From NCBI GenBank assembly GCA_021737425.1, contig JAIPDZ010000011.1:1-33020 (forward strand): 33,020 nt of DNA, given 5' to 3'. Source of the DNA: Deltaproteobacteria bacterium (lineage in GTDB: Bacteria > Desulfobacterota > DSM-4660 > Desulfatiglandales > Desulfatiglandaceae). Below are positions 2,914-25,506 of this stretch, in pieces. Position numbers and translations under genes: made by a program. The notes beneath the pieces are model-generated. The model was not told the origin of the DNA. It worked only from the letters and a program-made list of their open reading frames with translations, and searched no databases. Position 1 is the stretch's first letter; every line of letters begins with the position of its first letter.

Positions 2914-2914
2914 G

Positions 2915-6827: not shown

Positions 6828-7699
6828 AACCGTCTCATCCGTTTTTCAAACAACCTGATCAGGGGCTCCACCACCCGGCCGTTGGTGTAAAGATCCACGT
6901 AATCCACGCCCGCCCGTCGAAACAGGCCATCGAGGGAGGCGTTCTGGGCCTTTCGGTGCGCCTGCCACTGATCACGGAGCCGCTTTTGCCCGGTGTTGAG
7001 GAGCGCCGTCTCTCCAGTCTCGGGGTCGGTGAGCATAATGCGCCCCACCCGGGGCAGTTCGGTTTCCGCCGGATCGGAGATCCGAATGACCGTAAGGTCG
7101 TGTTTTCGGGCGGTCAGCTTGAGGGGTTTTTCAAACCCCTGGTCCATGCAGTCGGATATGAAGAATACGATACAGTGACGTTTGGCCACCCGGTTGAGGT
7201 AGGCGAGCGCGGACGCTACATCGGTGTTCAGGTCTTGGGGCTCATAGGTGAAAATCTCTTTGATCAGCCGCCACACATGGGAGGCCCCCTTTTTGGGGGG
7301 GATATATTTTTCCACCCTGGAGCTGAACAGGATGGCTCCCACCTTGTCATTGGTGCGGATGGCCAGAAAGGCCAGCATCCCGGCCACCTCGGCCAACAAC
7401 TCCCGCTTGAATTTCCGGCGGGTCCCAAACAGTTGAGATCCTGACAGATCCAGGATGAGCATAACGGTCAGTTCCCTTTCCTCTTGAAAGACCTTGACAT
7501 AGGGCTGGCCGAAACGGGCGGAGACATTCCAGTCAATGGTCCTGATGTCATCCCCGATCTGGTACTCCCGGACCTCGGAAAACTCCATGCCCCGTCCCTT
7601 GAACGCACTCACGTATTGTCCGGCAAACAGGTCATTGGCCATGCGTCGGGTGGTGAAATGAAATTTCTGAATCTTCTTCAATACCGATTCAGACAGCAT
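6824..7699 (-). CDS. DUF58 domain protein (vWA-like, MoxR-associated)
   Basis: GRGMEFSEVREYQIGDDIRTIDWNVSARFGQPYVKVFQEERELTVMLILDLSGSQLFG is characteristic of DUF58; directly downstream of moxR. Confidence 0.92.
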   Translation of the reverse strand: MLSESVLKKIQKFHFTTRRMANDLFAGQYVSAFKGRGMEFSEVREYQIGDDIRTIDWNVSARFGQPYVKVFQEERELTVMLILDLSGSQLFGTRRKFKRELLAEVAGMLAFLAIRTNDKVGAILFSSRVEKYIPPKKGASHVWRLIKEIFTYEPQDLNTDVASALAYLNRVAKRHCIVFFISDCMDQGFEKPLKLTARKHDLTVIRISDPAETELPRVGRIMLTDPETGETALLNTGQKRLRDQWQAHRKAQNASLDGLFRRAGVDYVDLYTNGRVVEPLIRLFEKRMRRL

Positions 7700-7700
7700 G

Positions 7701-8681
7701 TCAGGGAACCTCGATCCGCTCCAACACCATAGCGATCAGGTCATCCGGGGTCTTTTCCTCGGCCTCGGCCTCATAGCTAAGGATAATCCGGTGTCGCAGC
7801 ACGTCCGGGGCCATGGACTTGATGTCCTGGGGGGTGACATAGCCCCGGCCGCTCAGAAAGGCGTGGGCCCGCGCGGTCAATCCCAGCCAGATGGAGGCCC
7901 GGGGCGAGGCCCCGTAGCTGATCATGGGGCCGATTTCCAGACCGAATTCCTCGGGGGTGCGGGTGGCGCGGGTCAGCTTGAGGATATAGTCCACGAGGCG
8001 GTCTTCCATATGAATGGCCCGCATGGTTCTGCCGGCCGCCTCGATCTGGGAGAAATCCACCACAGTCGCCGGGATTTCACTCACCCCTCTATGGACCCGG
8101 GCCATGATCTCCTTTTCCTCTTCCAGGGCGGGATAATCCACCTTGATCTTGAACATAAACCGATCGATCTGGGCCTCGGGAAGGGGATAGGTCCCTTCCT
8201 GTTCAATGGGGTTCTGGGTGGCCAGCACCAGGAAGGGTTTCTCCAGGGGAAAGGTGGTCTCACCGATAGTAATCTGAAGCTCCTGCATGGCCTCCAGAAG
8301 GGCGCTCTGGACCTTGGCCGGGGCCCGGTTGATCTCATCGGCCAAAATAATGTTGTGAAAGATGGGGCCCTTCTTGATGTCAAAGGTGGCCGTGTCCGGC
8401 CGGTAAAACTGGGTGCCCAGGATATCGGCCGGAAGCAGGTCAGGGGTAAACTGGAGTCGTTGAAACGAGGTGTTGATGGTGGCGGCAAGGGCCTTTACGG
8501 CCGTGGTCTTGGCCAATCCCGGGAGCCCTTCCAACAATATATGCCCCTCACACAGAAGCCCGATGAGCATCCGTTCCATGAGATGGCGCTGGCCCACCAC
8601 AACCGTTTCCATGCCTGCAATAATCTGTCTCAAAACCAGGCTCTTTTGTTCCACTTCCTGAGTGATCTCCTGTATATCCAT
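7701..8681 (-). CDS. MoxR family AAA+ ATPase
   Basis: LLEGLPGLAKTTAVKALAATINTSFQRLQFTPDLLPADILGTQFYRP (Walker A), IILADEINRAPAKVQSALLEAMQE (Walker B); AGGAGAGG Shine-Dalgarno upstream of ATG. Confidence 0.95.
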   Translation of the reverse strand: MDIQEITQEVEQKSLVLRQIIAGMETVVVGQRHLMERMLIGLLCEGHILLEGLPGLAKTTAVKALAATINTSFQRLQFTPDLLPADILGTQFYRPDTATFDIKKGPIFHNIILADEINRAPAKVQSALLEAMQELQITIGETTFPLEKPFLVLATQNPIEQEGTYPLPEAQIDRFMFKIKVDYPALEEEKEIMARVHRGVSEIPATVVDFSQIEAAGRTMRAIHMEDRLVDYILKLTRATRTPEEFGLEIGPMISYGASPRASIWLGLTARAHAFLSGRGYVTPQDIKSMAPDVLRHRIILSYEAEAEEKTPDDLIAMVLERIEVP

Positions 8682-9014: not shown

Positions 9015-9045
9015 GTCATAAAGTGGAGCAAATTCCCATAAAGTG
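9007..9045 (+). promoter_or_regulatory. Putative MraZ-binding direct repeats (CATAAAGTG type, 10-bp phased)
   Basis: CATAAAGTG at 9017-9025 and 9037-9045, exactly 20 bp apart; degenerate CAGATAGTG (7/9) at 9007-9015. Confidence 0.55.
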
Positions 9046-9060
9046 ACTCGAAGGGGCACC

Positions 9061-9498
9061 ATGTTCAGAGGCCGTTCAAGACATACCTTAGACGAGAAAG
9101 GGCGCTTGGCCATTCCAGCCCGGTTCCGGGAGGTGCTGGATCGTAAGGGTGAAGAGTGGGTGGTGGTGACCCACAAGGACGATTCGCTCTGGACATTTTC
9201 AAGGGATGACTGGCGGCTCTTGGAGGAGAAGGCGGCGAGCCTCCCCCTGTTTGATAACGACGGTATCGCTTTTCTGAGATATTTTATCTCCGGCGCCGAG
9301 GAATGTAAAGTCAGAAACGGCCGCATCACCATCCCTCAAAACTTGAGAAATGATGCGGGCCTGCAAAAAGAGGTGGTGTTGGCGGGACAACTCAAGAGAT
9401 TCGAAATCTGGGACAGCCAAAAGTGGGAGGCAGAATTTAGACGGGTCAAAGAGGCTTTTCCAGAGGCAAGCCAGTCACTTTCAGAACTTCGGATATAA
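9061..9498 (+). CDS. mraZ: Transcriptional regulator MraZ
   Basis: MFRGRSRHTLDEKGRLAIPARFREVL...; AAGGGG Shine-Dalgarno before ATG 9061 (the ORF-track GTG at 9043 lies in the repeat and is less likely). Confidence 0.95.
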   Translation: MFRGRSRHTLDEKGRLAIPARFREVLDRKGEEWVVVTHKDDSLWTFSRDDWRLLEEKAASLPLFDNDGIAFLRYFISGAEECKVRNGRITIPQNLRNDAGLQKEVVLAGQLKRFEIWDSQKWEAEFRRVKEAFPEASQSLSELRI

Positions 9499-10451
9499 TG
9501 GGGGAAACCCGGGTGTATCCCCATCAGCCGGTCCTTGTGCATGAGGCAGTGGACTCCCTAATCCATAACCCGGCGGGCGTCTATGTAGACGGTACCGCAG
9601 GATCCGGGGGTCACAGTCTGCCCATCTCAAAACGGCTGGCAGAGCCGGGACACCTTATCTGCCTGGACAGGGATCCACAAGCGGTCAGGCTGGTCCAAAG
9701 GCGGCTGGACTCCGAAGAAACCCGGGTCACTGTGGTCCAGGCCAATTTCGCTGACATGGATCGGGTCTTAAAGGATCTGGGAATCGATCAAGTAGACGGG
9801 GTGCTGCTGGATCTGGGAATGTCCACTTTCCAGCTTGAGGAATCGGGGAAAGGGTTCAGTTTCAGCAGGACAGAGCCCTTGGACATGAGGATGGACCCTG
9901 CTTCGGAACAAACGGCAGCGGACCTGATCAATCATCTGCCCCAAGAAAAACTGGAACGCCTGCTCAAAGACTATGGTGAAGAAAGAAAAGCGAGATCCAT
10001 TGCCAGGGCCATTGTTCGTGCGCGTGCCCAAGCACCCATAGAGACATCTTCTCGTTTAGCGGCTCTCATTCAAGCGGTATCTCCCAGGTCGCATCGGAAA
10101 CGGGCCATACACCCCGCTACTCGCACATTTCAGGCCCTCAGAATAGCCGTAAACAGAGAGTTGGAAAACCTCGATATTTTTCTGGAAAAGATCCCGGAAG
10201 TGTTGGCCCGGGAAGGCCGTTTGGTGGTCTTGTCCTATCACTCACTGGAGGACAGACGGGTCAAACAGGCCATGGTTCAGTGGGAAAAGGGGTGTACCTG
10301 CCCCCCGGATTTTCCCGTGTGTGTATGTGGTAAGACGCCCCTGTTTCGGCGTCCCTTTAAAAAGGGCTTGAAACCGGATCAGAGAGAGATCCAGATGAAC
10401 CCCAGAGCGCGCAGCGCCATTATGCGAGTTGCAGAAAGGATTTTGTCATGA
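9498..10451 (+). CDS. rsmH: 16S rRNA m4C1402 methyltransferase RsmH
   Basis: HQPVLVHEAVDSL...YVDGTAGSGGHS...GVLLDLGMSTFQLE...SYHSLEDRRVKQ; TAATG overlap with mraZ. Confidence 0.96.
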   Translation: MGETRVYPHQPVLVHEAVDSLIHNPAGVYVDGTAGSGGHSLPISKRLAEPGHLICLDRDPQAVRLVQRRLDSEETRVTVVQANFADMDRVLKDLGIDQVDGVLLDLGMSTFQLEESGKGFSFSRTEPLDMRMDPASEQTAADLINHLPQEKLERLLKDYGEERKARSIARAIVRARAQAPIETSSRLAALIQAVSPRSHRKRAIHPATRTFQALRIAVNRELENLDIFLEKIPEVLAREGRLVVLSYHSLEDRRVKQAMVQWEKGCTCPPDFPVCVCGKTPLFRRPFKKGLKPDQREIQMNPRARSAIMRVAERILS

Positions 10452-10816
10452 CCCGGCCGGAAAAAGTAAACAGGATGAAAGGTTCCCGCAATGCCCACAC
10501 CGGGATTCGGATCACCAACACCCGTTCAAAAAGGCGAAAACTGCCGCTAACCCCGAGACAGGTGGTCCTGATCCTCTTGATGCTGTTCAGCTTCATGGGA
10601 AGCGGCATCGGGTATGTCTGGTCCAACTTTGAGACCACCCAGATCGGGTATGACCTCAGTCAGTTAAAACAGGAAGAAATGCGGCTCAAAGAGATAAACC
10701 GGAAACTGAGGCTGGAACTGGCCACCTTAAAATCGCCGAAACGATTGGAACCCTTGGCCGTTCAGCGATTTGATCTGGTGCAGCCCAAGGCCGAACAGAT
10801 TATTGTTCTACCATGA
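10448..10816 (+). CDS. ftsL: FtsL-like cell division protein
   Basis: Small single-TM protein with coiled coil (YDLSQLKQEEMRLKEINRKLRLELATLKSPKRLEPLAVQRFDLVQPK) between rsmH and ftsI. Confidence 0.8.
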   Translation: MTRPEKVNRMKGSRNAHTGIRITNTRSKRRKLPLTPRQVVLILLMLFSFMGSGIGYVWSNFETTQIGYDLSQLKQEEMRLKEINRKLRLELATLKSPKRLEPLAVQRFDLVQPKAEQIIVLP

Positions 10817-12804
10817 AGGTAGAGGAAAAAAAGTGGATTCGCATTCGCGTCTATGTTGTGGCCCTTTTCTTTATGTTGGGTCTGGGGACCATACTGGCCC
10901 GGGCCTATCAGCTGCAGGTGGTGGAGGACGATTATCTCAAAGGGATTGCCGACAAGGGGATTTTTGCCACCATCACCCTGCCTCCGGATCGCGGTTTTGT
11001 CTATGACCGAGAGGGGAACGAACTGGCGGTCAGTATTCAGGTGGGATCTGTCTTTGCCCATCCCAGCCAGATCCAGGAAAAGCCCAAGACCGCGGTAAAA
11101 CTCTCAAAAATCCTTCAGGAACCAACGGATAGCATTCTCCAAAAGTTGCGGAGGAAACGGTCATTTGTATGGATAAAGCGGCGAATCTCCCCGGCCGTGA
11201 CCGCAGAGGTCAGCCGGCTCAACCTGATCGGCGTCGGGATCACCACCGAATCGAGACGGTACTACCCGGAACGGGAGATCGCAGCCCATTTGATGGGCTT
11301 TTCCGGTACGGATAACCAGGGCCTGGAAGGCTTGGAACGAAAATATGACCGGTATTTGACCGGAGCCCAGCATAAGCTGGTATGCATGGAAGATGCCTTT
11401 GGGCGGCCTTTCGCCATCAACAAGCCCACGCCTCCGGAAAAGGCGGGCGTCCATCACCTCACCCTCACCATCGACAAGGAGATTCAATACAAGGCCCAGC
11501 AGGCCTTGCATTCAGCCGTCACCCAGACCAAAGCCAAGGGCGGGCATTGCGTGGTAGTGGATCCCAAAACCGGCGAGATACTGGCCATGGCCGTGGTTCC
11601 CCAGTTTAATCCCAACATTTTCTCCAAATTCAGGCCCGACACATGGCGCAACCGTGCGGTCACCGACTGTTTTGAGCCGGGTTCCACCATGAAGGCCTTT
11701 TTGTTGAGTGCGGCCCTGGAGGAAGGGGTGGTCAGTCCCCTGACCGAATTCTTCTGTGAGGAGGGGAAATTCAAGGTGGGCGGACGGGTGGTCCACGACA
11801 CCCATGAATATGAGACCCTGACCGTGGCGGATATTGTGGTGCGCTCCAGTAATATCGGCGCCATTAAAATCGGTCAGAAACTGGGATACGAAAGGTTCTG
11901 CCGCTATTTAAAGAAATTCGGCTTCAGTGAAAAGACAGGCGTGGATCTGTTGGGAGAAAGGGCGGGATTTATCCGGACCACAAAACATGCCAGGACCATT
12001 GACCAGGCCAATCTCTATTTCGGTCAGGGAATGAGCACCACATCCCTGCAACTGGTCATGGCCATGGCGGCCATTGCAAACGGGGGTCAACTTATGCGTC
12101 CATACGTGGTCAAAGAAATCGTGGATGATGCAGGGCATCAGGTGGAGGAGACCACACCCCAAGTGGTGAGAAGGGTGATCTCCTTCAAGACGGCAAAAAC
12201 AGTGGCCTCCATCCTGACCGGCGTGGTGGGAGAGGAGGGCACCGCCCCCAAGGCGGCCATAAAGGGGTTCGGCGTGGCGGGAAAGACCGGTACCGCCCAG
12301 AAAATAGATCCCCGGACCAAGGCCTATTCAAAACGGAAATATGTGGCCACCTTTGTGGGGTTTACCCCGGTGGAGGATCCAAAACTGGTCATTCTGGTAG
12401 TCATTGACGAACCCGAGGGGATCGCCTACGGGGGACTGGTGGCGGCCCCGGTCTTCCAGAAGGTGGGGTCATGGGCCCTCAATCACCTGAGGGCGGCGCC
12501 GAGACCGGGGCTGCTGGCGGGTGGGGATGCCGGGCAGGTGGATCAGGCCTCCGTATCTCCCAAAAGCGCCCAACCCATAGCGGTTGCGCCCCAGGTCAAG
12601 CGCATTGCCCAGGAACTGAGGCAAGGGGTGCTGCCCGACTTCACCCGGATGGGCATGCGACAAGTGCTCAAAAAAGGAAGAGATTTGGGTCTCAAAGTGT
12701 GTCTCAAAGGCTCCGGGCTGGCAGTGGCCCAGCAACCCGAACCGGGTTGTTCGCTTTCCCAGGTGGATTCGGTGGAAATCCATTTCAAACCGCCCGGCCG
12801 CTGA
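10813..12804 (+). CDS. ftsI: Division-specific transpeptidase (PBP2/FtsI type) with C-terminal PASTA domain
   Basis: Motifs STMK (EPGSTMKAF), SSN, KTGTAQK; C-terminal PASTA-like LPDFTRMGMRQVLKKGRDLGLKVCLKGSGLAVAQQPEPGCSLSQVDSVEIHF. Confidence 0.93.
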   Translation: MKVEEKKWIRIRVYVVALFFMLGLGTILARAYQLQVVEDDYLKGIADKGIFATITLPPDRGFVYDREGNELAVSIQVGSVFAHPSQIQEKPKTAVKLSKILQEPTDSILQKLRRKRSFVWIKRRISPAVTAEVSRLNLIGVGITTESRRYYPEREIAAHLMGFSGTDNQGLEGLERKYDRYLTGAQHKLVCMEDAFGRPFAINKPTPPEKAGVHHLTLTIDKEIQYKAQQALHSAVTQTKAKGGHCVVVDPKTGEILAMAVVPQFNPNIFSKFRPDTWRNRAVTDCFEPGSTMKAFLLSAALEEGVVSPLTEFFCEEGKFKVGGRVVHDTHEYETLTVADIVVRSSNIGAIKIGQKLGYERFCRYLKKFGFSEKTGVDLLGERAGFIRTTKHARTIDQANLYFGQGMSTTSLQLVMAMAAIANGGQLMRPYVVKEIVDDAGHQVEETTPQVVRRVISFKTAKTVASILTGVVGEEGTAPKAAIKGFGVAGKTGTAQKIDPRTKAYSKRKYVATFVGFTPVEDPKLVILVVIDEPEGIAYGGLVAAPVFQKVGSWALNHLRAAPRPGLLAGGDAGQVDQASVSPKSAQPIAVAPQVKRIAQELRQGVLPDFTRMGMRQVLKKGRDLGLKVCLKGSGLAVAQQPEPGCSLSQVDSVEIHFKPPGR

Positions 12805-12863
12805 GAAAGGCCGGTGAGAGGCCAGATGGTGAAGAACCCCAAAGACAGGCTACATAACCGCCC

Positions 12864-14432
12864 ATGGAATTGAAAGCACTCATAGCGGGACTGGCCACAT
12901 GGGAGGTAAAGGGGGATCCCGGGGTGGATATAGGGGGGATCGCCTATGACTCCCGGAAGGTGGTCCCCGGGGGTGCGTTCGTCGCCCTTACGGGACACTC
13001 ACTGGACGGCCACCGGTTCATCAAAGAGGCGCTCCAGAAGGGGGCTGCAGCCGTGGTCATGGAGACCTCAGCCCAAAGATCCTATGATCCCCTTCAGGAG
13101 CAAGGGGTCCAAAACACGCCGGTAATGGTTCAGGTGCCCGATACCCGTGAGGCCCTGGCTCACATGGCGAGACGGTTCTATGACTATCCCTATGCGGGTA
13201 TGCACCTGATCGGTATCACCGGCACCAACGGCAAAACCACCACGAGCTATCTTTTGGAGTCGATCCTGTCCGAAGCCGGAAGGCGAGTTGGGGTTATCGG
13301 GACCATCAGTCGCCGGATGCCGGGGAAGACCTGGAAGGCCGCCGTGACCACCCCGGAATCTCTGGATCTGATGCATACCCTGCGCAAGATGGCCGACGGC
13401 CGGGTTACCGACGTCATTATGGAGGTCTCCTCCCATGCCCTGGACCAGGGGAGGGCCCGGGGGTGTCCCTTCCGGGTGGCCGTGTTCACCAATATTTCCA
13501 GGGACCATCTGGATTATCATCCGTCCATGGCGGCCTATTTTGAGTCCAAGTCCCGCCTTTTCAGGGACCTGGCAGGGAAAGGCGGGGCCGCTTCCGCCAC
13601 GGCCGTGATTAACATGGACGACCCTATGGGACAGGCCCTCAAGTCATCAACGGAGGCTCCGGTCACCACCTTCGGGTGTCAACAGGATACAGATGTGCGG
13701 GCGGAAAAGGTCAGGCTTTTACAAGACGGCCTGGCGGCCAGGGTGCACACTCCGGTGGGAGATGCGGACATTCATTCAGCCCTCATGGGCGATTTTGATA
13801 TCTATAACATCCTGGCCGCTGCCGCAGCCGCATTCTCCCTGGGGGTGTCGGTGGAGGAGATCGCAGCCGGCATCGGCCGGCTCACCGGGGTGCCGGGTCG
13901 GCTGGAACGGGTGGTCAACCCGGCTTCACTACGTATCTTTGTGGACTATGCCCATACCCCCGACGCCCTTTTCAAGGCGTTGGGGGCCATGAAAAAGCGC
14001 ACCCAGGGCCGGGTCATCACCGTGTTCGGGTGTGGCGGAGACCGAGACCGGGGAAAGCGCCCCGAGATGGGGCAGGTGGCCGGCCGACTCAGTGACGTGG
14101 TGGTGATTACCTCGGACAATCCCCGCACCGAAGACCCGGAGACCATCGCCCGGGAGATTACAGCCGGTGTCAAAGATTCCGGGCTGAAGGATTACGCGCT
14201 GGAATTGGACCGGGAGAAGGCCATCTTCATGGCCGTACACATGGCAGGTAAGGAGGACGGGATCCTGATTGCCGGAAAAGGTCATGAGGATTATCAGATC
14301 ATTGGACAACAGAGGCGACCCTTTGATGACAGAGCGGTAGCGGCCAAGGCCGTGTCTGTGCGCCTGTGGGGTCAGCCGGCCCCTGGGCCTTTGGGTTCAC
14401 CCCCGAATGCCCGCAACGCCTCGGAGGGATAG
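12864..14432 (+). CDS. murE: UDP-MurNAc-tripeptide synthetase (probably meso-DAP adding)
   Basis: GITGTNGKTTTSYLLESIL; DNPR motif (TSDNPRTEDPE) associated with meso-diaminopimelate specificity. Confidence 0.95.
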   Translation: MELKALIAGLATWEVKGDPGVDIGGIAYDSRKVVPGGAFVALTGHSLDGHRFIKEALQKGAAAVVMETSAQRSYDPLQEQGVQNTPVMVQVPDTREALAHMARRFYDYPYAGMHLIGITGTNGKTTTSYLLESILSEAGRRVGVIGTISRRMPGKTWKAAVTTPESLDLMHTLRKMADGRVTDVIMEVSSHALDQGRARGCPFRVAVFTNISRDHLDYHPSMAAYFESKSRLFRDLAGKGGAASATAVINMDDPMGQALKSSTEAPVTTFGCQQDTDVRAEKVRLLQDGLAARVHTPVGDADIHSALMGDFDIYNILAAAAAAFSLGVSVEEIAAGIGRLTGVPGRLERVVNPASLRIFVDYAHTPDALFKALGAMKKRTQGRVITVFGCGGDRDRGKRPEMGQVAGRLSDVVVITSDNPRTEDPETIAREITAGVKDSGLKDYALELDREKAIFMAVHMAGKEDGILIAGKGHEDYQIIGQQRRPFDDRAVAAKAVSVRLWGQPAPGPLGSPPNARNASEG

Positions 14433-15881
14433 ATGCCGGCTCGCTGGGGTAAATGGACGGCCGCAGAAATCCTGGATGCAGTGGCCGGCACCTGGGTCTC
14501 AGGGTCTCTAAGCACTGTTTTCACCGGGATCAGTACGGACTCCCGGCATATCCAATCCGGGGAGATGTTCTGGGCCTTGAAAGGCCCCCGCTACGACGGG
14601 CATGACTTTGTCCTGACCGCCCTTGAAAGGGGGGCGCCGGGGGTGGTGGTGGACCGGGCGTGGTGGGCATCCACCGGGTGCACCTGCCTCGGTTCTACCC
14701 CCGGGGAGCGCGCCGTAATCACAGTAGACGACACCCTTGAGGCCTTGGGCGATTTTGCATGGTGGTGGCGTCATCAGCATACGGCAAAGGTGGTGGCCAT
14801 TACCGGAAGTTCAGGAAAAACCACCACCAAAGAGATGGCGGCCGCCATTTGCGCACAGCGGCATCATACCCTCAAAAACGAGGGGAACTTCAATAACCTG
14901 ATCGGCCTTCCCCTGACCCTGCTTCGTCTCAGGGACGATCATGAGATAGCGGTTCTGGAGATGGGCATGAACCAGCCGGGCGAGATCGGACGGCTCACCC
15001 GGATAGCGGGCCCGGATACGGGGGTGATCCTCAACATCGGAATAGCCCACTTGGAAGGGGTGCTGGATATAGAAGGGGTGGCCCGGGCCAAATGCGAGAT
15101 GGTGGAAAACATGGAGGCCAGCGGCCTTATGATCCTGAACGGGGATGATGATCGCCTCATGACCCATGCAGGGCCCTATCCCGTCCGGAAGATGACCTTC
15201 GGGATGGGGCCGGAAAACCAGGTGCGGGCAGAGGATGTCCGGGACCTGGGGCTGAAGGGGATTCAGTTCATCCTCGCCCATGGCCATGGATCCTGGCCGG
15301 CCCGCATCCGGATCCCGGGTCTTTATAACCTGTACAACGCTCTGGCTGCCGCTGCCATAGGGTTCAACCTGGGAGAGGCCGCAGAGACCATCCTGCAAGG
15401 GCTGGAAAGCTACCCGGGCATGAATGGGCGGTTTCGGGTGTACTCCCTTTGGGGCGGCATCACCGTGATCGATGATACCTATAATGCCAATCCGTCTTCC
15501 TTGAAGGCCGTCCTGGGGTCCGTCAAATCCTTGGCCCAGGGCCAAGGATGCAGGCTTATAGTGGGTCTGGGAGAAATGAGGGAACTGGGGGATGCCGCGG
15601 TTTCATCCCACCAGGAGGCAGGGGGGCAGGTGGCCGCAGCAGGGGCTGATCGCTTTTTTGCCTTGGGCCCCCATGGCCGTGAAATGATCCAGGGGGCCAT
15701 CCAGGGCGGGATGCCCCGCAACAAGGCAAAACGGGTGGCCGGCCATGATGAAATGGTGGATGAAATTTCGCATGCCGTGACAGGCGGGGGTCTGGTGCTT
15801 CTCAAGGGGTCCAGAAAGATGGCCCTTGAAAAGGTGGTAAACGGGCTGGAGCGTATTTTTGGGCCGGGGAAAATGGATTAA
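14433..15881 (+). CDS. murF: UDP-MurNAc-pentapeptide synthetase
   Basis: AITGSSGKTTTKEMAAAI, NNLIGLPLTLL, DDTYNANPSSLKAVL. Confidence 0.95.
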   Translation: MPARWGKWTAAEILDAVAGTWVSGSLSTVFTGISTDSRHIQSGEMFWALKGPRYDGHDFVLTALERGAPGVVVDRAWWASTGCTCLGSTPGERAVITVDDTLEALGDFAWWWRHQHTAKVVAITGSSGKTTTKEMAAAICAQRHHTLKNEGNFNNLIGLPLTLLRLRDDHEIAVLEMGMNQPGEIGRLTRIAGPDTGVILNIGIAHLEGVLDIEGVARAKCEMVENMEASGLMILNGDDDRLMTHAGPYPVRKMTFGMGPENQVRAEDVRDLGLKGIQFILAHGHGSWPARIRIPGLYNLYNALAAAAIGFNLGEAAETILQGLESYPGMNGRFRVYSLWGGITVIDDTYNANPSSLKAVLGSVKSLAQGQGCRLIVGLGEMRELGDAAVSSHQEAGGQVAAAGADRFFALGPHGREMIQGAIQGGMPRNKAKRVAGHDEMVDEISHAVTGGGLVLLKGSRKMALEKVVNGLERIFGPGKMD

Positions 15882-15895
15882 CCGGAGGTATCTTC

Positions 15896-16261
15896 ATGAA
15901 GAACGGGAAGAAAATACTGGTGGTGGACGACGAGAGAGGCATCCGATTGCTCTTATCCGAAGTCCTGTTGAGTGAGGGCTTTGAGGTCCGCTCGGCCAAG
16001 GATGGACAGGAATCCCTGGAAGTGTTGCAGGAGGAGCACTTTGATCTGGTGATTACCGATATCAATATGCCCAGGCTGGACGGGATGGGCATGTTGGAGC
16101 GGATGCAAAAGGGAGGACGAAAGGAAAAGGTCATTGTCATGACCGGCAATCCTTCTGCCCCCAACCTGTCCAATGACCACCTCCCCAATGTGGTGATGAG
16201 CATTATCAAGCCCTTTGAAATGGCGCAATTGGTGGACATGGTCACAGAAGCGACCGCCTAA
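15896..16261 (+). CDS. Single-domain (CheY-like) response regulator
   Basis: KKILVVDDERGIRLLLSEVL; D11/D12, phosphoacceptor D55 (DLVITDINMPRLDG), T83 (VIVMTGN), K105 (IIKPF); ends after the receiver; GGAGGT Shine-Dalgarno. Confidence 0.93.
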   Translation: MKNGKKILVVDDERGIRLLLSEVLLSEGFEVRSAKDGQESLEVLQEEHFDLVITDINMPRLDGMGMLERMQKGGRKEKVIVMTGNPSAPNLSNDHLPNVVMSIIKPFEMAQLVDMVTEATA

Positions 16262-16317
16262 GGGCAGGTCTTGGGCCGGTATCCGGGGAGGGATAAACCC
16301 AAGTCGGTGGGGAAGCT

Positions 16318-17397
16318 ATGTTGTTCAAACTGATCTACCTGTTTCATACGGATTTTTCGTGGCTGAATGTATTTCGGTACATTACCTTCAGGACCATCCT
16401 GTCCAGCCTGACCGCCCTCATGATCTGCCTCATCTGTGGGGGGTGGGTGATCAGACGGCTGCGGGCCATGCAGGTGGGACAACAGATCCGGGAGGACGGT
16501 CCCTCCAATCACCGAACCAAGGCCGGGACTCCCACCATGGGCGGTTGCCTGATTGTGCCGGCCGCCCTCTTTTCCACCCTCCTGTGGGTGGATCCAAGCA
16601 ACTTCTATGTATGGATCGTGGTGTTCGTGGCCCTGTGCTTCGGCCTGATCGGTTTCGCAGACGATTATCTCAAGGTATCCCAAAAAAACAGCCGGGGGCT
16701 CAGTGCATCGGCCAAGTTTTCCCTCCAAATCATCTGCGCCACGGGCGTGTCTTTGGCCATCTATCTTTATCCAGGATTTGACACCCATCTCAACCTCCCC
16801 TTCTTCAAACGGGTGGTCCCTGATCTGGGGCTCTGGTACATCCCCTTTTCGGTTTTCATCATCGTAGGCACCTCCAACGCCGTGAACCTGACCGACGGGC
16901 TGGATGGTTTGGCCATCAGCCCCCTGATTGTGGCCTTTGCCAGTTACCTGGGGTTTTCCTACATCGCCGGAAATGTCAAAATCGCCTCTTATCTGCAGGT
17001 TCCCTATATCTCCGGTGCAGGCGAGATTGCAGTCATTTGCGGAACCTTGGTGGGCGCAGGCCTGGGGTTTCTCTGGTATAACGCCTATCCGGCGGAGATT
17101 TTCATGGGGGACGTGGGATCCATCCCCTTAGGGGCCATTCTGGGCACCGTGGCGGTGGCCACCAAACAGGAGGTGGTCCTGGTCCTGGTGGGCGGTCTAT
17201 TCGTCTTTGAGGCCTTATCCGTCATCTTTCAGGTGGCCTACTTCAAACTGACCGGCGGGCAGAGAATTTTCCGGATGGCGCCCATCCATCATCACTTTGA
17301 ACTGAAGGGATGGCCCGAACCCAAGGTCATTGTCCGATTCTGGATCATCTCCATTGTCCTGGCCCTCCTTTCCTTAAGCACACTCAAGTTGAGGTAG
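16318..17397 (+). CDS. mraY: Phospho-MurNAc-pentapeptide transferase
   Basis: [63 protein letters not shown]. Confidence 0.97.
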
Positions 17398-17400
17398 CCC

Positions 17401-18843
17401 ATGGCCGTGACCCCATTTGATCCCTCTCATACCCCCATCCCGGGCCCGGGCACCAGCGTGCTGGTGGTGGGCTTAGGCACTTCCGGGTACTGGAGTGCGC
17501 GCCACACGGCCCGATTGGGCGCAAGGGTAACCGTAACCGAGGCCAGGCCCGACGCGGAACTGGACCGGGATCAATTGGCCGAACTCCGGGGGATGGGGGT
17601 AAGGCTGGAAACGGGCGGCCACCGGGAAGAGACATTTCTCCATACGGATGTGATCGTGGTAAGTCCGGGTGTCCCCTTAGATACGCCCCTGTTGGCCATG
17701 GCCCGCAACCGACGCATCCCGGTGATGGGCGAACTGGAACTGGCCAGCCGTTTTATCCATGAACCCATGATCGCCGTCACCGGCACCAACGGCAAGTCCA
17801 CGGTAACCGCCCTCATGGGACACATCCTTGAAACCGCAGGGCACACGGTGTTTGTGGGCGGGAATATCGGCACCCCTCTCATGGCCTATGCGGCCCGGGG
17901 AGGGGCCGATTATCTCGTGGTGGAGGTGAGCAGCTTTCAATTGGACACCATTGAGCGATTTCATCCCATGGTCTCCATCATCCTCAATATCTCTCCGGAT
18001 CACCTGGATCGGTATCCGGACTATGGGGCCTATATCGCTTCCAAACTGAAGATATTTCAAAACCAGGGGGCCGGGGATTATCTCATCATAAACGACCAGG
18101 ATCCGGTGCTCAAAGCCCTTCGGCCCTCATCCGGTCTTCACACCCTCAGGTACGGTTTGAGGCCGAAAAAAGGACGGGACGCCTTTGTTCGGGGCAGGAC
18201 CATTGCCTCAGGCCTGAAAGAGAAACCCCTTGAGCGATTTTCCATCCAAGGCTTTGTCCTGCCCGGGAGCCATAACCTGGAAAACCTTCTCGGTGCCATC
18301 CTGGCGGCCCAGGCCCTGGGCGTGGAACATGATACCATTCAAAAATCCTTTGCCACCTTCACCGGGCTTCCCCACCGCCTGGAATATGCGGGGACCCTCA
18401 ACGGCGTATCGTTTTACAATGACTCCAAGGCCACCAATGTGGACGCTGCGGCAAAAGCCATCCAGAGTTTTGAAGGGTCGCTGATCCTCATTGCGGGCGG
18501 GCGGCACAAAGGGGCGGACTATGCCCCGCTCATCACGGCGGCCTCGGGAAGGGTAAAAGGAGTGGTCTTGCTGGGGGAGGCTACAGAACGCCTGGCCCGA
18601 TCCCTGGGTCAACAGATCCCTTTTCAGGTGGCCCGGGGGATGAAAGAGGCCGTATTCAAGGCCTTCTCTCTCGCCACCAGGGGAGACGTGGTCCTGCTGG
18701 CGCCGGCGTGCGCCAGCTTTGACATGTTCTCGGATTACACCCATAGGGGGAGGGTGTTCAAGGAGAGTGTAGATCGATTAATGGCATCTTCCCGCACTTC
18801 AGGAGGAGATGGAGACTCCCAATTTGGGGTGATCAATGGCTGA
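17401..18843 (+). CDS. murD: UDP-MurNAc-L-alanine--D-glutamate ligase
   Basis: AVTGTNGKSTVTALMGHIL, GGNIGTPL, NISPDHLDRY, FYNDSKATNVDAA. Confidence 0.95.
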   Translation: MAVTPFDPSHTPIPGPGTSVLVVGLGTSGYWSARHTARLGARVTVTEARPDAELDRDQLAELRGMGVRLETGGHREETFLHTDVIVVSPGVPLDTPLLAMARNRRIPVMGELELASRFIHEPMIAVTGTNGKSTVTALMGHILETAGHTVFVGGNIGTPLMAYAARGGADYLVVEVSSFQLDTIERFHPMVSIILNISPDHLDRYPDYGAYIASKLKIFQNQGAGDYLIINDQDPVLKALRPSSGLHTLRYGLRPKKGRDAFVRGRTIASGLKEKPLERFSIQGFVLPGSHNLENLLGAILAAQALGVEHDTIQKSFATFTGLPHRLEYAGTLNGVSFYNDSKATNVDAAAKAIQSFEGSLILIAGGRHKGADYAPLITAASGRVKGVVLLGEATERLARSLGQQIPFQVARGMKEAVFKAFSLATRGDVVLLAPACASFDMFSDYTHRGRVFKESVDRLMASSRTSGGDGDSQFGVING

Positions 18844-19939
18844 CAAAAAGCGCAGGGATGCGGGTTACGATTTGATGATTCTCATCCCGGTCATTTTGTT
18901 GATCGGCCTGGGCCTGGTGGTGGTGTACAGTGCCAGTTCCAACCTGGCCGAACACCGCATGGGAGACAGCTATTTTTATCTCAAAAAGCAGGCCGTGTTC
19001 TGTGCCATCGGTATCGGCCTGATGATCCTGGCCCGTTATATCCCTTGCACCCTGTACGCAAAACTGAGTTATCCCCTCTTGTTGATCAGCGGCGGGCTAC
19101 TGGTGCTGCTGCTGGTTCCGGGGTTCGGGCGCAGGGTGGGCGGGGCCTGCAGGTGGCTGAGCATGGGCGGCATCTCCTTTCAGCCTTCGGAACTGGCAAA
19201 GTTTTCTCTCGCCGTGTATGTGGCCTATTCCATGGCCAAGAAAGGGGCCAAGATGGCCTCATTCTCGAGAGGGATGCTTCCCCATCTAATGGTGGCCTGC
19301 GCATTCGTGTTCCTGATCCTGCTGCAGCCGGATTTGGGAACTGCCGTGATCATCGGGGCCTGGCTGATGATACTCCTGTTCCTGGGGGGGGTGAGGATAT
19401 TTCAGCTTGCATCTTTGTCTTTGCTGTTTCTGCCCCTCCTGGCCTGGCTGATACTCAAGGCGGATTACAGACTCAACCGGTGGATGGCCTTTCTGGATCC
19501 CTGGGAAGATCCCCAGGGGATCGGTTTTCACATCATCCATTCGTTTCTGGCCTTTGGGTCCGGGGGGATATTCGGCGTGGGCCTGGGCAACAGCAAGCAG
19601 AAGCTGTTTTATCTGCCCGAACCCCACACGGATTTTGCCCTCTCCATTGTGGGGGAGGAGTTGGGCCTGCTGGGCGTGGGGGTGATCATTGTCCTGTTCG
19701 GGATGTTGATTATGCGGGGAATCAAGGTGGCCCTGAGCGCCAGGGATCTGTACAGCAGCTATCTGGCGTTAGGACTGACCTGTTTGATCGGGCTTCAGGT
19801 GATTATCAATATGGGGGTAGTGGTGGGCCTGTTGCCCACCAAGGGGCTGCCTCTCCCCCTGATCAGCTACGGGGGATCCTCCCTGGTAGTCACCCTGATC
19901 AGCATCGGGGTACTCCTCAATATTTCATCGAGGCGGTAA
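18836..19939 (+). CDS. ftsW: SEDS peptidoglycan polymerase FtsW
   Basis: VVYSASSNLAEHRMGDSYFYLKKQ, QPDLGTAVII, LPEPHTDFALSIVGEELGLLG, LPLISYGGSSLV. Confidence 0.95.
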   Translation: MADKKRRDAGYDLMILIPVILLIGLGLVVVYSASSNLAEHRMGDSYFYLKKQAVFCAIGIGLMILARYIPCTLYAKLSYPLLLISGGLLVLLLVPGFGRRVGGACRWLSMGGISFQPSELAKFSLAVYVAYSMAKKGAKMASFSRGMLPHLMVACAFVFLILLQPDLGTAVIIGAWLMILLFLGGVRIFQLASLSLLFLPLLAWLILKADYRLNRWMAFLDPWEDPQGIGFHIIHSFLAFGSGGIFGVGLGNSKQKLFYLPEPHTDFALSIVGEELGLLGVGVIIVLFGMLIMRGIKVALSARDLYSSYLALGLTCLIGLQVIINMGVVVGLLPTKGLPLPLISYGGSSLVVTLISIGVLLNISSRR

Positions 19940-21063
19940 TGAAACCAGGACGAGCAAGTTCAGATGTGGATGCGTTTCGCTGTGTCATCGCCGGGGGCGG
20001 TACCGGAGGGCACCTGTTCCCGGGTATCGCCGTTGCCGAGGAACTAAGAAGCCGGCTGGACCGGGTGGAGCTCCTGTTTATCGTGGGCCGAAAACCCATG
20101 GAGGCCCGGATTCTCTCCAGCCACGGCTATGGGACCCGGTCCCTTGATGTGGAAGGTCTGACCGGCCGGGGCATCAGAAAGGGTTTGACCGTCTGTGCAA
20201 AGCTGCCCAAGAGCATCTTGCAGTCCATTTCCGTGATCCATACTTTTTCCCCAGACGTGGTGCTGGGGGTGGGGGGGTATTCGTCAGGCCCCTTTTGTCT
20301 CAGTGCGCGAATCATGGGAATCCCCACCGCCGTTCATGAACAAAACGCCTACCCCGGGCTGACCAATCGGCTGTTGGCCCGGATTGCGGATCGTATCTTT
20401 ATCTCCATGGATGAAAGCCGACCCTACTTTGATGCCGCCAAAGCCGTCCTGACCGGCAATCCGGTCCGGCACGCATTTTTTGCCAAAAGGGAAAAACCCG
20501 GGACCACCCCGGAAGGCTTCTGCGTGCTGGTGGTGGGGGGGAGTCAGGGCGCCAGCGTCATCAGCCAAGTGCTCGTGAGCGCACTTAAAATCCTGAAGCA
20601 AGAAGGTCGATCTTTAAGGGTACTGCATCAGACCGGCCCGCACGATTATGAACGGGTCAAAGCGGATTACACGCAACAGGGTCTCAGCGGACAGGTCTTC
20701 CCCTTTATCGATGATATGGCGACCGCATATGCCCAGGCCGACCTGGTCATCAGCCGGGCCGGGGCCACCACCCTGTTTGAACTGGCGGCCATGGGAAAGC
20801 CCGCCATCCTGATTCCCTACCCCTTTGCCACCCACAATCACCAGAAGACCAATGCCATGAGTCTGGTGCGGGCCGGGGGCGCGGAGATGGTGCTTCAGGA
20901 AGATCTGACAGGGGAAAAGATGGCCTATCTGGTGATGAAATATATGGATGATCCGGGCACACTGCATGAAATGGGCCAACGGGCCCATAAGATGAGCCGC
21001 AGGGATGCGGCGTCAAAAATCGTGGATCACTTGTTGGAAATGGCAAAGTATACAAGACCATGA
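19939..21063 (+). CDS. murG: UDP-GlcNAc transferase MurG
   Basis: Start MKPGRASSDVDAFRCVIAGGGTGGHLFPGIAVAEEL at 19939 (TAATG overlap with ftsW); VLGVGGYSSGP, HEQNAYPGLTNR, ISRAGATTLFEL. Confidence 0.95.
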   Translation: MKPGRASSDVDAFRCVIAGGGTGGHLFPGIAVAEELRSRLDRVELLFIVGRKPMEARILSSHGYGTRSLDVEGLTGRGIRKGLTVCAKLPKSILQSISVIHTFSPDVVLGVGGYSSGPFCLSARIMGIPTAVHEQNAYPGLTNRLLARIADRIFISMDESRPYFDAAKAVLTGNPVRHAFFAKREKPGTTPEGFCVLVVGGSQGASVISQVLVSALKILKQEGRSLRVLHQTGPHDYERVKADYTQQGLSGQVFPFIDDMATAYAQADLVISRAGATTLFELAAMGKPAILIPYPFATHNHQKTNAMSLVRAGGAEMVLQEDLTGEKMAYLVMKYMDDPGTLHEMGQRAHKMSRRDAASKIVDHLLEMAKYTRP

Positions 21064-22517
21064 CCCAGTTCGGTAAAACCAAGCATATCCACTTTGTGGG
21101 CATCGGGGGGATCGGCATGAGCGGACTGGCCGAACTGCTCGTGAACTTGGAGTACCAGGTGAGCGGTTCAGACCTGAAAGACACCTCGGTCACTCGACGG
21201 CTGTCCAGCCTGGGGTGCCGGGTGTTTAAAGGGCATGATGCTGACCATATGAAGGGTGCCGATGTGGTGGTGTACTCCTCTGCCGTATCCCAGGAAAACC
21301 CGGAAATCCTCAAGGCCGTGGACCTCAAGATTCCGGTCATTCCCAGGGCGGAGATGCTGGCGGAACTGATGCGGCTCAAACACGGGATTGCCATTGCCGG
21401 GGCCCATGGAAAGACCACCACCACCTCCATGGTGGCGTCCATACTGACCGCCGGGCTACTGGACCCCACCGTGGTCATCGGCGGGCGCCTGGATATCTGG
21501 GAAGGGGCCAATGCCAAGCTGGGACAGGGAGAGATCCTGGTGGCGGAAGCCGATGAGAGTGACGGCTCTTTCCTGGTATTATCGCCCACCATCGCCGTGG
21601 TCACCAACATCGACCAAGAGCACATGGACCACTACGGCAGCATGAGGGCCATTCGCCGCACCTTCATCGATTTTGTGAACAAGCTCCCCTTTTACGGAAT
21701 TGCCATTTTGTGTCTTGACAACGAAGCCATTCAGGGGATCCTGCCCCGGCTGAGAAAAAGATGCCTGACCTATGGCATGAATTCACAGGCCGATCTGCGG
21801 GCCCTGGACCTGGAAAAGAAAGCAGGGGGCACCCGCTTTGAGGTCGTGTATCAGGACCGTTCTTTGGGCAGAATCGCCGTGGGCATGCCTGGGGAGCATA
21901 ACGTGCTGAACGCCTTGGCCGCGGTGGGGGTGGGACTGGAACTGGATCTGAAAATGGAGGTCATAAAAAAGGGGCTGAAGGCCCTGGGAGGCCTGTCCAG
22001 AAGACTCCAAATCAAGAGCGAGGTCAATGGAATCCTCTTTGTGGACGATTACGGCCACCACCCCACTGAAATCTCGGCCACCCTCAAGACCGTTAAGGAA
22101 TGCTGGCCGGAAAGACGCCTGATGGTAGTATTTCAACCCCACAGGTACACCCGGACCCGGGATCTGTTTGAGCGATTCGTTGTCTGTTTTAACGATGCGG
22201 ACATCCTCATGGTCAGCCCCATATATCCGGCAGGAGAGGCGCCCATCAAAGGCGTCAGTTCCAAGCGACTGTGCCAGGGGATAAAGGAGCACGGGCACAA
22301 GGAGGTATTCTGTTATGAAAATACGGATGACCTCCTACGGTTCCTCTGGCCCCTTATGGAAACAGGCGATCTGATACTGACACTGGGTGCCGGTGATATT
22401 CACAAAACCGGCGACACAATCCAAAACAGGATGCGTAAACAGAAGGCGACCCACAGGGGAAAACCAGACCCGGATGCGGAATCATGGACGTCGCACAGAA
22501 AAGGGACCTCCAAATGA
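21060..22517 (+). CDS. murC: UDP-MurNAc--L-alanine ligase
   Basis: HFVGIGGIGMSGLAELL, AGAHGKTTTTSMVASIL, EADESDGSF, VVFQPHRYTRT. Confidence 0.96.
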   Translation: MTQFGKTKHIHFVGIGGIGMSGLAELLVNLEYQVSGSDLKDTSVTRRLSSLGCRVFKGHDADHMKGADVVVYSSAVSQENPEILKAVDLKIPVIPRAEMLAELMRLKHGIAIAGAHGKTTTTSMVASILTAGLLDPTVVIGGRLDIWEGANAKLGQGEILVAEADESDGSFLVLSPTIAVVTNIDQEHMDHYGSMRAIRRTFIDFVNKLPFYGIAILCLDNEAIQGILPRLRKRCLTYGMNSQADLRALDLEKKAGGTRFEVVYQDRSLGRIAVGMPGEHNVLNALAAVGVGLELDLKMEVIKKGLKALGGLSRRLQIKSEVNGILFVDDYGHHPTEISATLKTVKECWPERRLMVVFQPHRYTRTRDLFERFVVCFNDADILMVSPIYPAGEAPIKGVSSKRLCQGIKEHGHKEVFCYENTDDLLRFLWPLMETGDLILTLGAGDIHKTGDTIQNRMRKQKATHRGKPDPDAESWTSHRKGTSK

Positions 22518-23398
22518 GGGCGGGTGAGGGATTGGCCCTGGATCACCCCATGAAGACTCACACCACCTTTCAGGTGGGGGGAGCAGCAGAGGCCTTTTAC
22601 GAGGCCACTGACCTGCAAGGTCTCGCAGAGGTAGTGGCATATCTGGTACACGAGCAGATTCCTTACTGGGTGATCGGAAAAGGAAGCAACATCCTGGTAA
22701 AAGATGAAGGGGTCAGGGGAGTGGTCATCCGCCTCAGTGGATCGTTGGCCGGGATCCAATATGGGTCCGAGCGGAACACCTTGGTGGTGGGTGCCGGGGT
22801 GTCCATTCAAGAATTGCTCCGTACGTGTCGTGACCGGGGTCTGGGAGGGCTTGAGTTTCTATCCGGGATACCGGGTACCCTTGGGGGGGCCGTGGCCATG
22901 AACGCAGGGGCCTTTGGAAAGGAAGTGGGGGAGCGGGTGGAGGCCATCCGGGTGATTACCCCCGCAGGGGGTCTTCTTGAGAGGGAAAAAGAGGACTTGC
23001 GATTTTCATATCGCAGTCTCCAATTGGACAGAGGGGCCATCATTACCCTCGTCCGAGTAAAATTGGAATCCGTGGGCCGGGAGGCCGTTTTTGAGCGTAT
23101 GGCCGGTTACCTCAGACAAAAAAAGGCCCTTCAACCGCTTGGTTATCCCAGTGCGGGGTCTGTATTCAAAAACCCTGTGGGCGACTATGCCGGCAGGCTC
23201 ATAGAAGCGGCCGGGCTGAAGGGCAAAAGGGTGGCCGGGGCCATGATCTCCAAGCGGCATGCCAACTTCATCGTCAACACAGGGGGGGCGACCGCGTCCG
23301 ACATCCTGGCTCTCATGAATCTTATTCAGCAGGAAGTCAAACGTATATCCGGTATCCAACTGGAGCCGGAGATCAGAATCCTGGGAGAATCCGCATGA
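22514..23398 (+). CDS. murB: UDP-N-acetylenolpyruvoylglucosamine reductase
   Basis: HTTFQVGGAAEAF, VIGKGSNILVKDEGVRGVVIRL, GIPGTLGGAVAMNAGAFG, PSAGSVFKNP. Start ambiguous: ATG 22514 (ATGA overlap) or ATG 22484. Confidence 0.93.
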   Translation: MRAGEGLALDHPMKTHTTFQVGGAAEAFYEATDLQGLAEVVAYLVHEQIPYWVIGKGSNILVKDEGVRGVVIRLSGSLAGIQYGSERNTLVVGAGVSIQELLRTCRDRGLGGLEFLSGIPGTLGGAVAMNAGAFGKEVGERVEAIRVITPAGGLLEREKEDLRFSYRSLQLDRGAIITLVRVKLESVGREAVFERMAGYLRQKKALQPLGYPSAGSVFKNPVGDYAGRLIEAAGLKGKRVAGAMISKRHANFIVNTGGATASDILALMNLIQQEVKRISGIQLEPEIRILGESA

Positions 23399-24213
23399 CA
23401 CGGCGGTCCCGGACAAAAAAAAGACCGGTCAGGGAAAGACCGGAGGCCCAGCCATCCGCCGGGCATGGCCTGCGTCGGCTGGGATCCCGTCTTTTAAAGA
23501 TCACCCTGGCGTTTTCCATCATCACGGTGGTAAGTGTCTCGTTTCTGTCTGCCTACCATTACCTCTTGAGATCCCCGCATGTGAAGGTGGAACGGGTGGA
23601 GATCAGGGGGGTGGACAAACGGTTCCAAAAGGAATTGGTGGCCCTTTGCGGAATCAATGCCGAGCCCAATCTGTTGGCCATAAACCTGGGGGAGTTGAAA
23701 CAGAAAATTGAGGCACATCCGTGGATCCGCACGGCCAGGCTGGAGAGGCGGTTCCCGCATACCCTCATTATGGAGATCCAGAGACAGGTCCCTGTGGCCA
23801 TCTTGTTGTCAGACCCACTGTATTATGTCAACCCCTGGGGGGAGCCATTTAAACCGGTCTCCAGAGAAGAAAGCGTGGATTTCCCGGTGATTACCGGAAT
23901 TTCATCTGACGGGGCATCCCCAGGAGAACCGCTGAGGGCGGTGGCTCAGATTATGGGCATTTTGAAATCGGAACAGGGGATCTGGTCCATGGAAAGACTA
24001 TCAGAGGTGAATGTGAAGGAAGACGGTCGTGTGTCATTATACTACTCTCACCTGAAAGCGGAGATTCGGTGCAATGTAAACGAATTATCAGAGAAACTGC
24101 CCGGATTGCGGCAGGTGGCCGAGCATCTAAAGGCATCGGGAAACCTGGACAGGGTCAGTCGCATAGACCTCGATTATGCACATGGCGCCGTGGTCTCCTT
24201 TGAAACGGGTTGA
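23395..24213 (+). CDS. ftsQ: Cell division protein FtsQ (POTRA domain)
   Basis: Basic N-terminus, one TM, POTRA-like VKVERVEIRGVDKRFQKELVALCGINAEPNLLAINLGELKQKIEAHPWIRTARLERRFPHTLIMEI. Confidence 0.9.
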   Translation: MTRRSRTKKRPVRERPEAQPSAGHGLRRLGSRLLKITLAFSIITVVSVSFLSAYHYLLRSPHVKVERVEIRGVDKRFQKELVALCGINAEPNLLAINLGELKQKIEAHPWIRTARLERRFPHTLIMEIQRQVPVAILLSDPLYYVNPWGEPFKPVSREESVDFPVITGISSDGASPGEPLRAVAQIMGILKSEQGIWSMERLSEVNVKEDGRVSLYYSHLKAEIRCNVNELSEKLPGLRQVAEHLKASGNLDRVSRIDLDYAHGAVVSFETG

Positions 24214-24256
24214 CCGGCATTTGTCCGGACTAAATTACAAAAGAGGTAAAACAAAA

Positions 24257-25480
24257 ATGGCCGGTGAAATCATTGTGGGGCTTGATATCGGTACCACCAA
24301 GATCTGTGCGGTGGTCGGTGAAATTCAGCCGGATGGTGTCGAAATCATCGGTATCGGCAGCCACCCGTCCGAAGGCCTTCGAAAAGGAGTGGTCATCAAC
24401 ATAGAAGACACCGTCAACTCCATAAAAGAGGCCGTGGAAGAGGCTGAAACCATGGCCGGCTGCGAAATCAGCTCCGTGTATGCAGGTATTGCCGGTGGAC
24501 ACATCAAGGGATTTAATACCCCCGGGGTCATCCCCCTCAAGGAAAAGGAGGTGACCAAAAAGGACATCCAGCATGTGATTGAGGCGGCCAGTGCGGTGGC
24601 CATTCCCATGGATCGAGAGGTCATCCACACCCTGGTCCAGGAGTTTATCGTGGATGACCAGGACGGGATCTTGGACCCTCTCGGCATGTCCGGGGTCCGG
24701 TTGGAGGCCAAGGTGCACATCGTAACCGGTGCAGTCACCTCTGCACAGAATATTATCAAATGTGCAAACCGGGCCGGACTCGATGTCTACGATATCGTGC
24801 TGGAATCCCTGGCCTCCAGCGAATCGGTACTGACCAAGGAAGAACGCAACCTGGGATCGGCCCTCATCGACTTCGGGGGCGGCACCACTGACCTGGCGCT
24901 CTTTTCCAGAGGCGCCATCAAACACACTTCCGTGCTGGCCTTGGGCGGAGACAATCTGACCTATGACATTGCCGTGGGGCTCAGGACCCCCAAGCTGGAA
25001 GCGGAAAAGATCAAGATAAGATACGGGTGTGCCCTCTCCTCCCTCATCGGCAAGGAGGAAACCATTGAAGTACCCGGAGTGGGGGGTCGTAAACCCAGGA
25101 CCTTGTCCCGTCAGATCCTGGGAGAGATATTGGAGCCCAGGGTGGAAGAGATATTCTCTCTGATTTATGGCGAGTTGTTGCGTTCAGAGTGTGAAGAGTT
25201 GGCCAGTTCCGGGGTGGTGATCACCGGCGGATCTGCTGAACTGGCGGGCGTGAGTGAGATGGCGGAACAGATATTCGGGGCCCCGGCACGGGTGGGGTAC
25301 CCGGAGGGGATCACCGGTCTTACAGACTTGGTGAACAAGCCCATGTATGCCACTGCAGTGGGTCTTATCCTATATGGGGCCAAGGCGAGCAAGCAGAAGA
25401 AGAAATTCAGAATACGGGACAGCAACATCTTTCACCTGGTGATGGCCAGGATGAAAAGATGGTTCAAGGATATTGTTTAA
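24257..25480 (+). CDS. ftsA: Cell division protein FtsA
   Basis: Start MAGEIIVGLDIGTTKICAVVGE at 24257 (ORF track extends upstream); actin-fold motifs IDFGGGTTDLALF, VITGGSAELAG; C-terminal amphipathic helix IFHLVMARMKRWFKDIV. Confidence 0.96.
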   Translation: MAGEIIVGLDIGTTKICAVVGEIQPDGVEIIGIGSHPSEGLRKGVVINIEDTVNSIKEAVEEAETMAGCEISSVYAGIAGGHIKGFNTPGVIPLKEKEVTKKDIQHVIEAASAVAIPMDREVIHTLVQEFIVDDQDGILDPLGMSGVRLEAKVHIVTGAVTSAQNIIKCANRAGLDVYDIVLESLASSESVLTKEERNLGSALIDFGGGTTDLALFSRGAIKHTSVLALGGDNLTYDIAVGLRTPKLEAEKIKIRYGCALSSLIGKEETIEVPGVGGRKPRTLSRQILGEILEPRVEEIFSLIYGELLRSECEELASSGVVITGGSAELAGVSEMAEQIFGAPARVGYPEGITGLTDLVNKPMYATAVGLILYGAKASKQKKKFRIRDSNIFHLVMARMKRWFKDIV

Positions 25481-25506
25481 CCCCCAAACACAAAAGGAGG
25501 GACATC

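Follow-up and report, generated by a model that had tools for sequence, protein, structure and literature searches.

Single-domain receivers are common, and few bacterial gene clusters are as well conserved as the dcw cluster. To our knowledge, the known post-translational controls of dcw functions include no histidine-kinase receiver. One enzyme of the cluster, MraY, transfers a sugar phosphate onto undecaprenyl phosphate, and a reaction of the same type is controlled by a receiver elsewhere. In Myxococcus xanthus, a phosphoglycosyl transferase that works on undecaprenyl phosphate is activated directly by the phosphorylated form of EpsW, a single-domain receiver (PMC12802240). A second relevant group, the phosphate-shuttling receivers (the CckA receiver, MrrA, Sma0114, and SdrG), keeps the active site and the kinase face, with a variable beta5 aromatic residue and a missing helix alpha4 (PMC9981736; PMC5964349). 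Receivers without the beta5 aromatic residue and alpha4 act in phosphotransfer (PMC9981736; MrrA, PMC5964349), and how a signal is passed on without alpha4 and the Thr-aromatic switch is treated as unresolved in PMC9981736. NtrYX and CenKR are among the two-component systems that regulate envelope genes, and their control is reported to touch wall and division genes (PMC7240162; PMC9275681).

The receiver described here, encoded between murF and mraY, resembles each of these systems in part. Like MrrA, SdrG, Sma0114, and the CckA receiver domain, it combines an intact phosphorylation site and a conserved kinase-facing helix with no reliable beta5 aromatic residue and a missing or disordered alpha4 (PMC9981736; PMC5964349). 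Unlike the FATGUY receivers among them (MrrA, SdrG, and Sma0114), its family lacks the sequence PFxFATG[G/Y], lies in the dcw cluster rather than near stress-response genes, and has invariant M70, R75, and E77 in the alpha3-beta4 region; because the motif is absent, we did not file it as a FATGUY member. EpsW is also a single-domain receiver, controlling an enzyme with the reaction type of MraY, whose gene adjoins that of the dcw receiver. The EpsW target, however, is a monotopic exopolysaccharide transferase, and EpsW is modelled as an ordinary five-helix receiver, whereas the dcw family lacks alpha4. CheY, Spo0F, and RR468 are free-standing receivers with the same catalytic residues, but CheY-type output through alpha4-beta5-alpha5 cannot work alike in the dcw receiver, which is accompanied by no chemotaxis or sporulation gene set. 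NtrYX, CenKR, and similar envelope regulators act on transcription, whereas the dcw receiver has no output domain. A text search of the openly licensed literature found no paper describing a murF-receiver-mraY arrangement, and a receiver family that is fixed in the dcw cluster and lacks alpha4 appears to be undescribed.

The window, a stretch of 33,020 nucleotides, contains a complete dcw cluster on the forward strand (mraZ-rsmH-ftsL-ftsI-murE-murF-receiver-mraY-murD-ftsW-murG-murC-murB-ftsQ-ftsA-ftsZ; positions 9043 to 26787). The receiver gene (15896 to 16261, forward strand) runs intact from ATG to TAA and encodes 121 amino acids that Pfam Response_reg covers over their full length (86.1 bits, against a cut-off of 30.2). 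The product is thus one domain, with no second, and has the acidic pair (D11/D12), the phospho-acceptor Asp (D55), the Thr/Ser (T83), and the Lys-Pro (K105) of a response regulator. The gene lies 14 nt after murF (14433 to 15881, forward strand; TIGR01143, 380 bits) and 56 nt before mraY (16318 to 17397, forward strand; TIGR00445, 418 bits), and a ribosome-binding sequence, GGAGG (15884 to 15888, forward strand), stands 7 nt before its ATG. These results confirm an earlier note on this DNA, which had described a complete, co-directional receiver with those residues, those two gaps, and its own Shine-Dalgarno sequence. Promoter-like and terminator-like matches were sought in both flanking gaps, and none was found. 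The source genome (4.14 Mb in 309 contigs) holds 150 receiver matches, so it is the place of this receiver, not its presence, that needs explaining. Against the NCBIfam model DVU0259_DivK (NF045717), the receiver scores 66 bits, below the curated cut-off of 160. Its closest relative among the receivers of its own genome, at 39% identity, is L168 (G000:C199), the N-terminal domain of a 521-amino-acid receiver-sensor-kinase protein whose gene adjoins that of a proton-translocating oxidoreductase-like membrane subunit. The presence of dsrA in the genome agrees with its assignment to the sulfate reducers.

Elsewhere in the window, a Bat/MoxR-type gene run (284 to 8681, reverse strand) is divergent from the dcw cluster and comprises a MoxR AAA ATPase, a DUF58 protein, two VWA proteins, a BatD-like protein, and a TPR-SH3 protein. 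Directly after ftsZ lies a gene for a radical SAM protein with an N-terminal Radical_SAM_N2 domain (26836 to 28629, forward strand), and farther on lies one for an ArsA-type ATPase with an HSP20-like domain (31320 to 32546, forward strand).

The position of the receiver is conserved. A family-profile search of 85 genomes of the window's order gave 37 matches of at least 165 bits over a background of at most 106 bits; together with two in-place members that scored below 165 bits, one diverged (G084) and one frameshifted (G079), we counted 39 orthologs. All belong to two families (31 of 46 genomes in f1 and 8 of 17 in f2, compared to 0 of 22 in f3 to f6). mraY lies directly 3' of 38 of the 39. 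For 36 of these 38, murF is found on the 5' side within one contig, whereas the G077 and G024 contigs stop before murF could appear. In the remaining genome, G070, neither murF nor mraY is seen on the receiver contig, and the contig with mraY breaks off about 190 nt before that gene; most of the genomes compared look like draft or metagenome assemblies, and single exceptions (G070, G079, and G267) should be given no weight. The frameshift of G079 falls about halfway through its in-place receiver (L113:1635-1850) and could be a sequencing error or mark a pseudogene heading for loss. A first survey of 60 relatives had given a bimodal distribution of best matches (at least 95 bits, or at most 71 bits for the background), and in all 29 genomes with a strong match (at least 95 bits; 45 to 65% identity) the receiver was directly upstream of mraY.

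The gaps around the orthologs are mostly shorter than 200 nt, and several genomes have overlaps (-4 nt to murF in L026 and L027; -1 to murF and -11 to mraY in L029 and L030). Other than in genus g4, described below, no extra genes were seen where the gap to murF or to mraY is long. Most orthologs are also preceded by purine-rich ribosome-binding sequences. Relatives that lack the receiver have murF joined directly to mraY, with no receiver between them. The earlier note had proposed that a neighborhood survey showing the insertion in this genome only would argue for chance; with 38 in-place orthologs, chance insertion is ruled out, and the observation of a receiver in this slot is confirmed as real and no one-off. 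A wider family was likewise rejected, as 297 genomes sampled phylum-wide contained no ortholog outside the order. A scan of the genome collection for named relatives returned only background receivers (27 to 45% identity). Although receivers are common, the place of this one is unusual because the slot has been kept across genera and over a long span of evolution.

We then compared the residues of 38 ortholog sequences with those of other receivers. D12, D55, K105, and P106 are invariant, position 11 is Asp in 35 sequences and Glu in 3, and position 83 is Thr in 30 and Ser in 8. Helix alpha1, through which the kinase is mainly recognized in known two-component pairs, hardly varies (E13, G15, I16, R17, L19, L20, S21, and E/D22), with R17, L19, and L20 invariant and E13 present in 37 of 38 sequences. 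M70, R75, and E77 do not vary among the orthologs and are variable in other receivers. The G98, A99, and Y/F102 motif of ordinary receivers, by contrast, is gone. An aromatic residue occupies position 102 (codon at 16199 to 16201, forward strand; Ser in the window receiver, Tyr/Phe on beta5 of ordinary receivers) in 1 of 37 orthologs versus 84 of 90 other receivers (Fisher P 3e-24, a guide only, as P values of this kind treat related sequences as independent), and a proline falls within positions 86 to 98 in 37 of 37 orthologs versus 8 of 92 others, in a background set that is rich in NtrC-type receivers. All 18 receivers of the window's own genome with a residue at position 102 have an aromatic there. 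Beta4 and the loop that follows it read KV/I-I-I/V-M-T/S-G/A-N/D-P in the orthologs, so that M-[TS]-[GA]-[ND]-P stands where a FATGUY receiver would have its motif.

Structure prediction pointed in the same direction. For the window receiver, AlphaFold2 predicted a receiver fold with confidence (pLDDT 89, pTM 0.85). The linker that joins beta4 to beta5 (codons 84 to 98; 16145 to 16189, forward strand) forms no helix in this model, and pLDDT drops to about 70 there. The control, a canonical single-domain receiver from the same genome with a similarly small alignment, showed a clear alpha4 at 84 to 95. RR468 and Spo0F were the top solved matches in Foldseek. CheY-type receivers are marked by alpha4 and by Tyr/Phe on beta5 for T-Y coupling; the model of the window receiver lacks the helix, and all but one of 37 orthologs lack the aromatic. 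The earlier description of the protein as CheY-like therefore holds for its chemistry and fails for its output side, which, by the alignments and the model, has been lost. We read these proteins as a new, lineage-specific family of single-domain receivers without alpha4.

The earlier note had also stated that the window holds no kinase, and we saw none among its annotated genes, but the statement does not extend to the whole family. In genus g4, the gene order is murF-histidine kinase-receiver-mraY (G003, L173, with the kinase at 3759 to 4550; the G024 contig, L174, breaks off upstream of the kinase gene). The g4 kinase, 263 to 265 amino acids in the two species and 79% identical between them, is soluble, has no recognized sensor domain, and combines HATPase_c with a HisKA match just below the curated cut-off. 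This arrangement is the best available evidence for the receiver as a working phospho-acceptor. An adjacent kinase occurs in g4 only; in other genera, the best matches to it are at most 51% identical and mostly long, apparently multidomain or hybrid kinases, and no clear ortholog was found there. Each g4 genome carries a second kinase copy elsewhere (L206:3185-4036 and L207:3150-4325), 56% identical to the receiver-adjacent one, with no receiver gene adjoining it and, in G024, with a PAS-like N terminus.

Given these observations, our tentative preference, held at somewhat below even odds, is for a receiver that is charged by a kinase, is read at its active-site side, and serves wall-precursor synthesis. 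On this view, an ancestor of the two families would have gained the gene between murF and mraY, a single gain being the simplest case, and the gene would probably be co-transcribed with the wall-precursor genes. A HisKA-type histidine kinase would bind the conserved alpha1 face and phosphorylate D55. With helix alpha4 and the Thr-aromatic switch gone, the usual alpha4-beta5-alpha5 face would not serve as the readout. The signal would instead be read at the active-site and alpha1 side, by phosphotransfer or by binding that depends on the state of the receiver, a mode that has been proposed for receivers of the MrrA and CpdR types. Its partner would most likely be a peptidoglycan-precursor component from the same gene run (MurF or MraY) or a protein that controls them, since the strict slot suggests a functional link to MurF and MraY, or at least to their expression. 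As an outcome, the state of the kinase would be matched to wall-precursor capacity. By an unusual route, the receiver thus probably connects a sensor kinase with wall construction, with phosphorylation of D55 in the cell, a partner in wall-precursor synthesis, and the direction of the effect being what we infer from these patterns; the coupling to lipid I/II synthesis that the earlier note had suggested may be part of it. Counting against this reading are the G070 receiver on a contig that shows neither murF nor mraY, roughly 11 losses after which murF and mraY are rejoined, the lack of any MurF or MraY residue that tracks the receiver, and a kinase neighbor in g4 only.

A realistic possibility, although not the one we favor, is that the receiver is purely a phosphorelay intermediate or phosphate sink, and that sitting in the dcw cluster does no more than couple its abundance to growth and wall synthesis. 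The absence of alpha4 and of the beta5 aromatic, with the active site and alpha1 kept, matches intermediary receivers, which pass phosphate between histidine-containing partners (PMC9981736; MrrA, PMC5964349). Kinases are numerous in the source genome, which also contains five Hpt matches. By itself, however, a relay or sink does not explain why one slot is occupied in 38 of 39 genomes, and the family has its own beta4-loop sequence in place of the FATGUY motif. This receiver offers a natural test case for signal transfer without alpha4 and the Thr-aromatic switch.

The history of the gene bears on the remaining explanations. In FastTree phylogenies, the orthologs are monophyletic (support 0.994) with respect to 94 other receivers, which argues against several separate insertions of unrelated receivers. 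A single gain in the ancestor of the two families followed by losses is, most simply, what the trees suggest; transfer of the receiver within the order would also fit better than separate insertions. In a tree of MraY plus MurF, the carriers fall within one clade of 51 tips, 37 of them carriers, implying 11 losses if there was a single gain, a count that is approximate given the weak support of several deep nodes. Some of the apparent losses fall within single genera (g6, g11, and g13). Between close relatives, dN/dS was 0.07 to 0.23 for the receiver, which in well-aligned pairs places it between mraY (0.04 to 0.12) and murF (about 0.16 to 0.25). By these ratios, the receiver gene is under purifying selection, and together with the invariant chemistry they rule out a degenerate receiver, the state in relatives that the earlier note had named as an argument for chance. 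The repeated losses and low dN/dS suggest a receiver that is dispensable over long times yet maintained where it is present.

This record weighs on the idea of direct allosteric control of MraY or MurF, in which the phosphorylated receiver would bind the enzyme at the membrane and raise or lower lipid I synthesis, much as EpsW acts on EpsZ (PMC12802240). The conserved adjacency to mraY and the family-specific, invariant M70, R75, and E77 as candidate surface residues would suit such a role, and EpsW provides a precedent, albeit one of reaction type rather than protein family, since EpsZ is monotopic and MraY polytopic. Nonetheless, we found no convincing MurF or MraY residue that separates genomes with the receiver from those without it, and hence nothing to suggest that a binding site has co-adapted; conservation does not extend to the usual output face, and the receiver has been lost repeatedly without visible compensation. 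We therefore judge direct allosteric regulation to be distinctly unlikely. A neighboring proposal, that a two-component signal directly gates lipid I synthesis through a HisKA-charged, alpha4-less receiver whose binding to MraY or MurF depends on its phosphorylation state, strikes us as doubtful, if a little less so; if it is true, a histidine kinase would control the first membrane step of peptidoglycan synthesis at the post-translational level. Finally, an orphan receiver that serves an unrelated pathway and is kept as a passenger for its expression in a highly expressed operon would fit the frequent loss and the lack of co-adapted residues, but is improbable given purifying selection at least as strong as that on murF, an active site invariant in 38 sequences, and the fact that two thirds of f1 keep the receiver even though its clean absence from about 20 relatives in the same two families indicates that leaving is easy. 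A slot-fixed receiver under selection, which in a single genus has a kinase gene as its neighbor, provides a handle on how two-component signaling could meet wall-precursor synthesis.

Related receivers were also seen elsewhere. In family f44, a related single-domain receiver without the beta5 aromatic (L121, L122, L124, and L125, from G189, G157, G267, and G243, respectively) has, as judged by eye from translations, nrdD and a small glutaredoxin/thioredoxin-like gene on one side and an nrdG-like radical SAM gene on the other, and is thus another case of a receiver embedded in a housekeeping operon. In G267, which belongs to another family than the dcw receiver carriers, a receiver (L091; G267:C169) lies directly 3' of murF near a contig end, with mraY elsewhere; the only receiver next to murF that was seen outside the order, it was rejected as a member of the dcw family, as it groups with the receivers of the nrdD-nrdG-like operons instead, and it may represent an independent recruitment.
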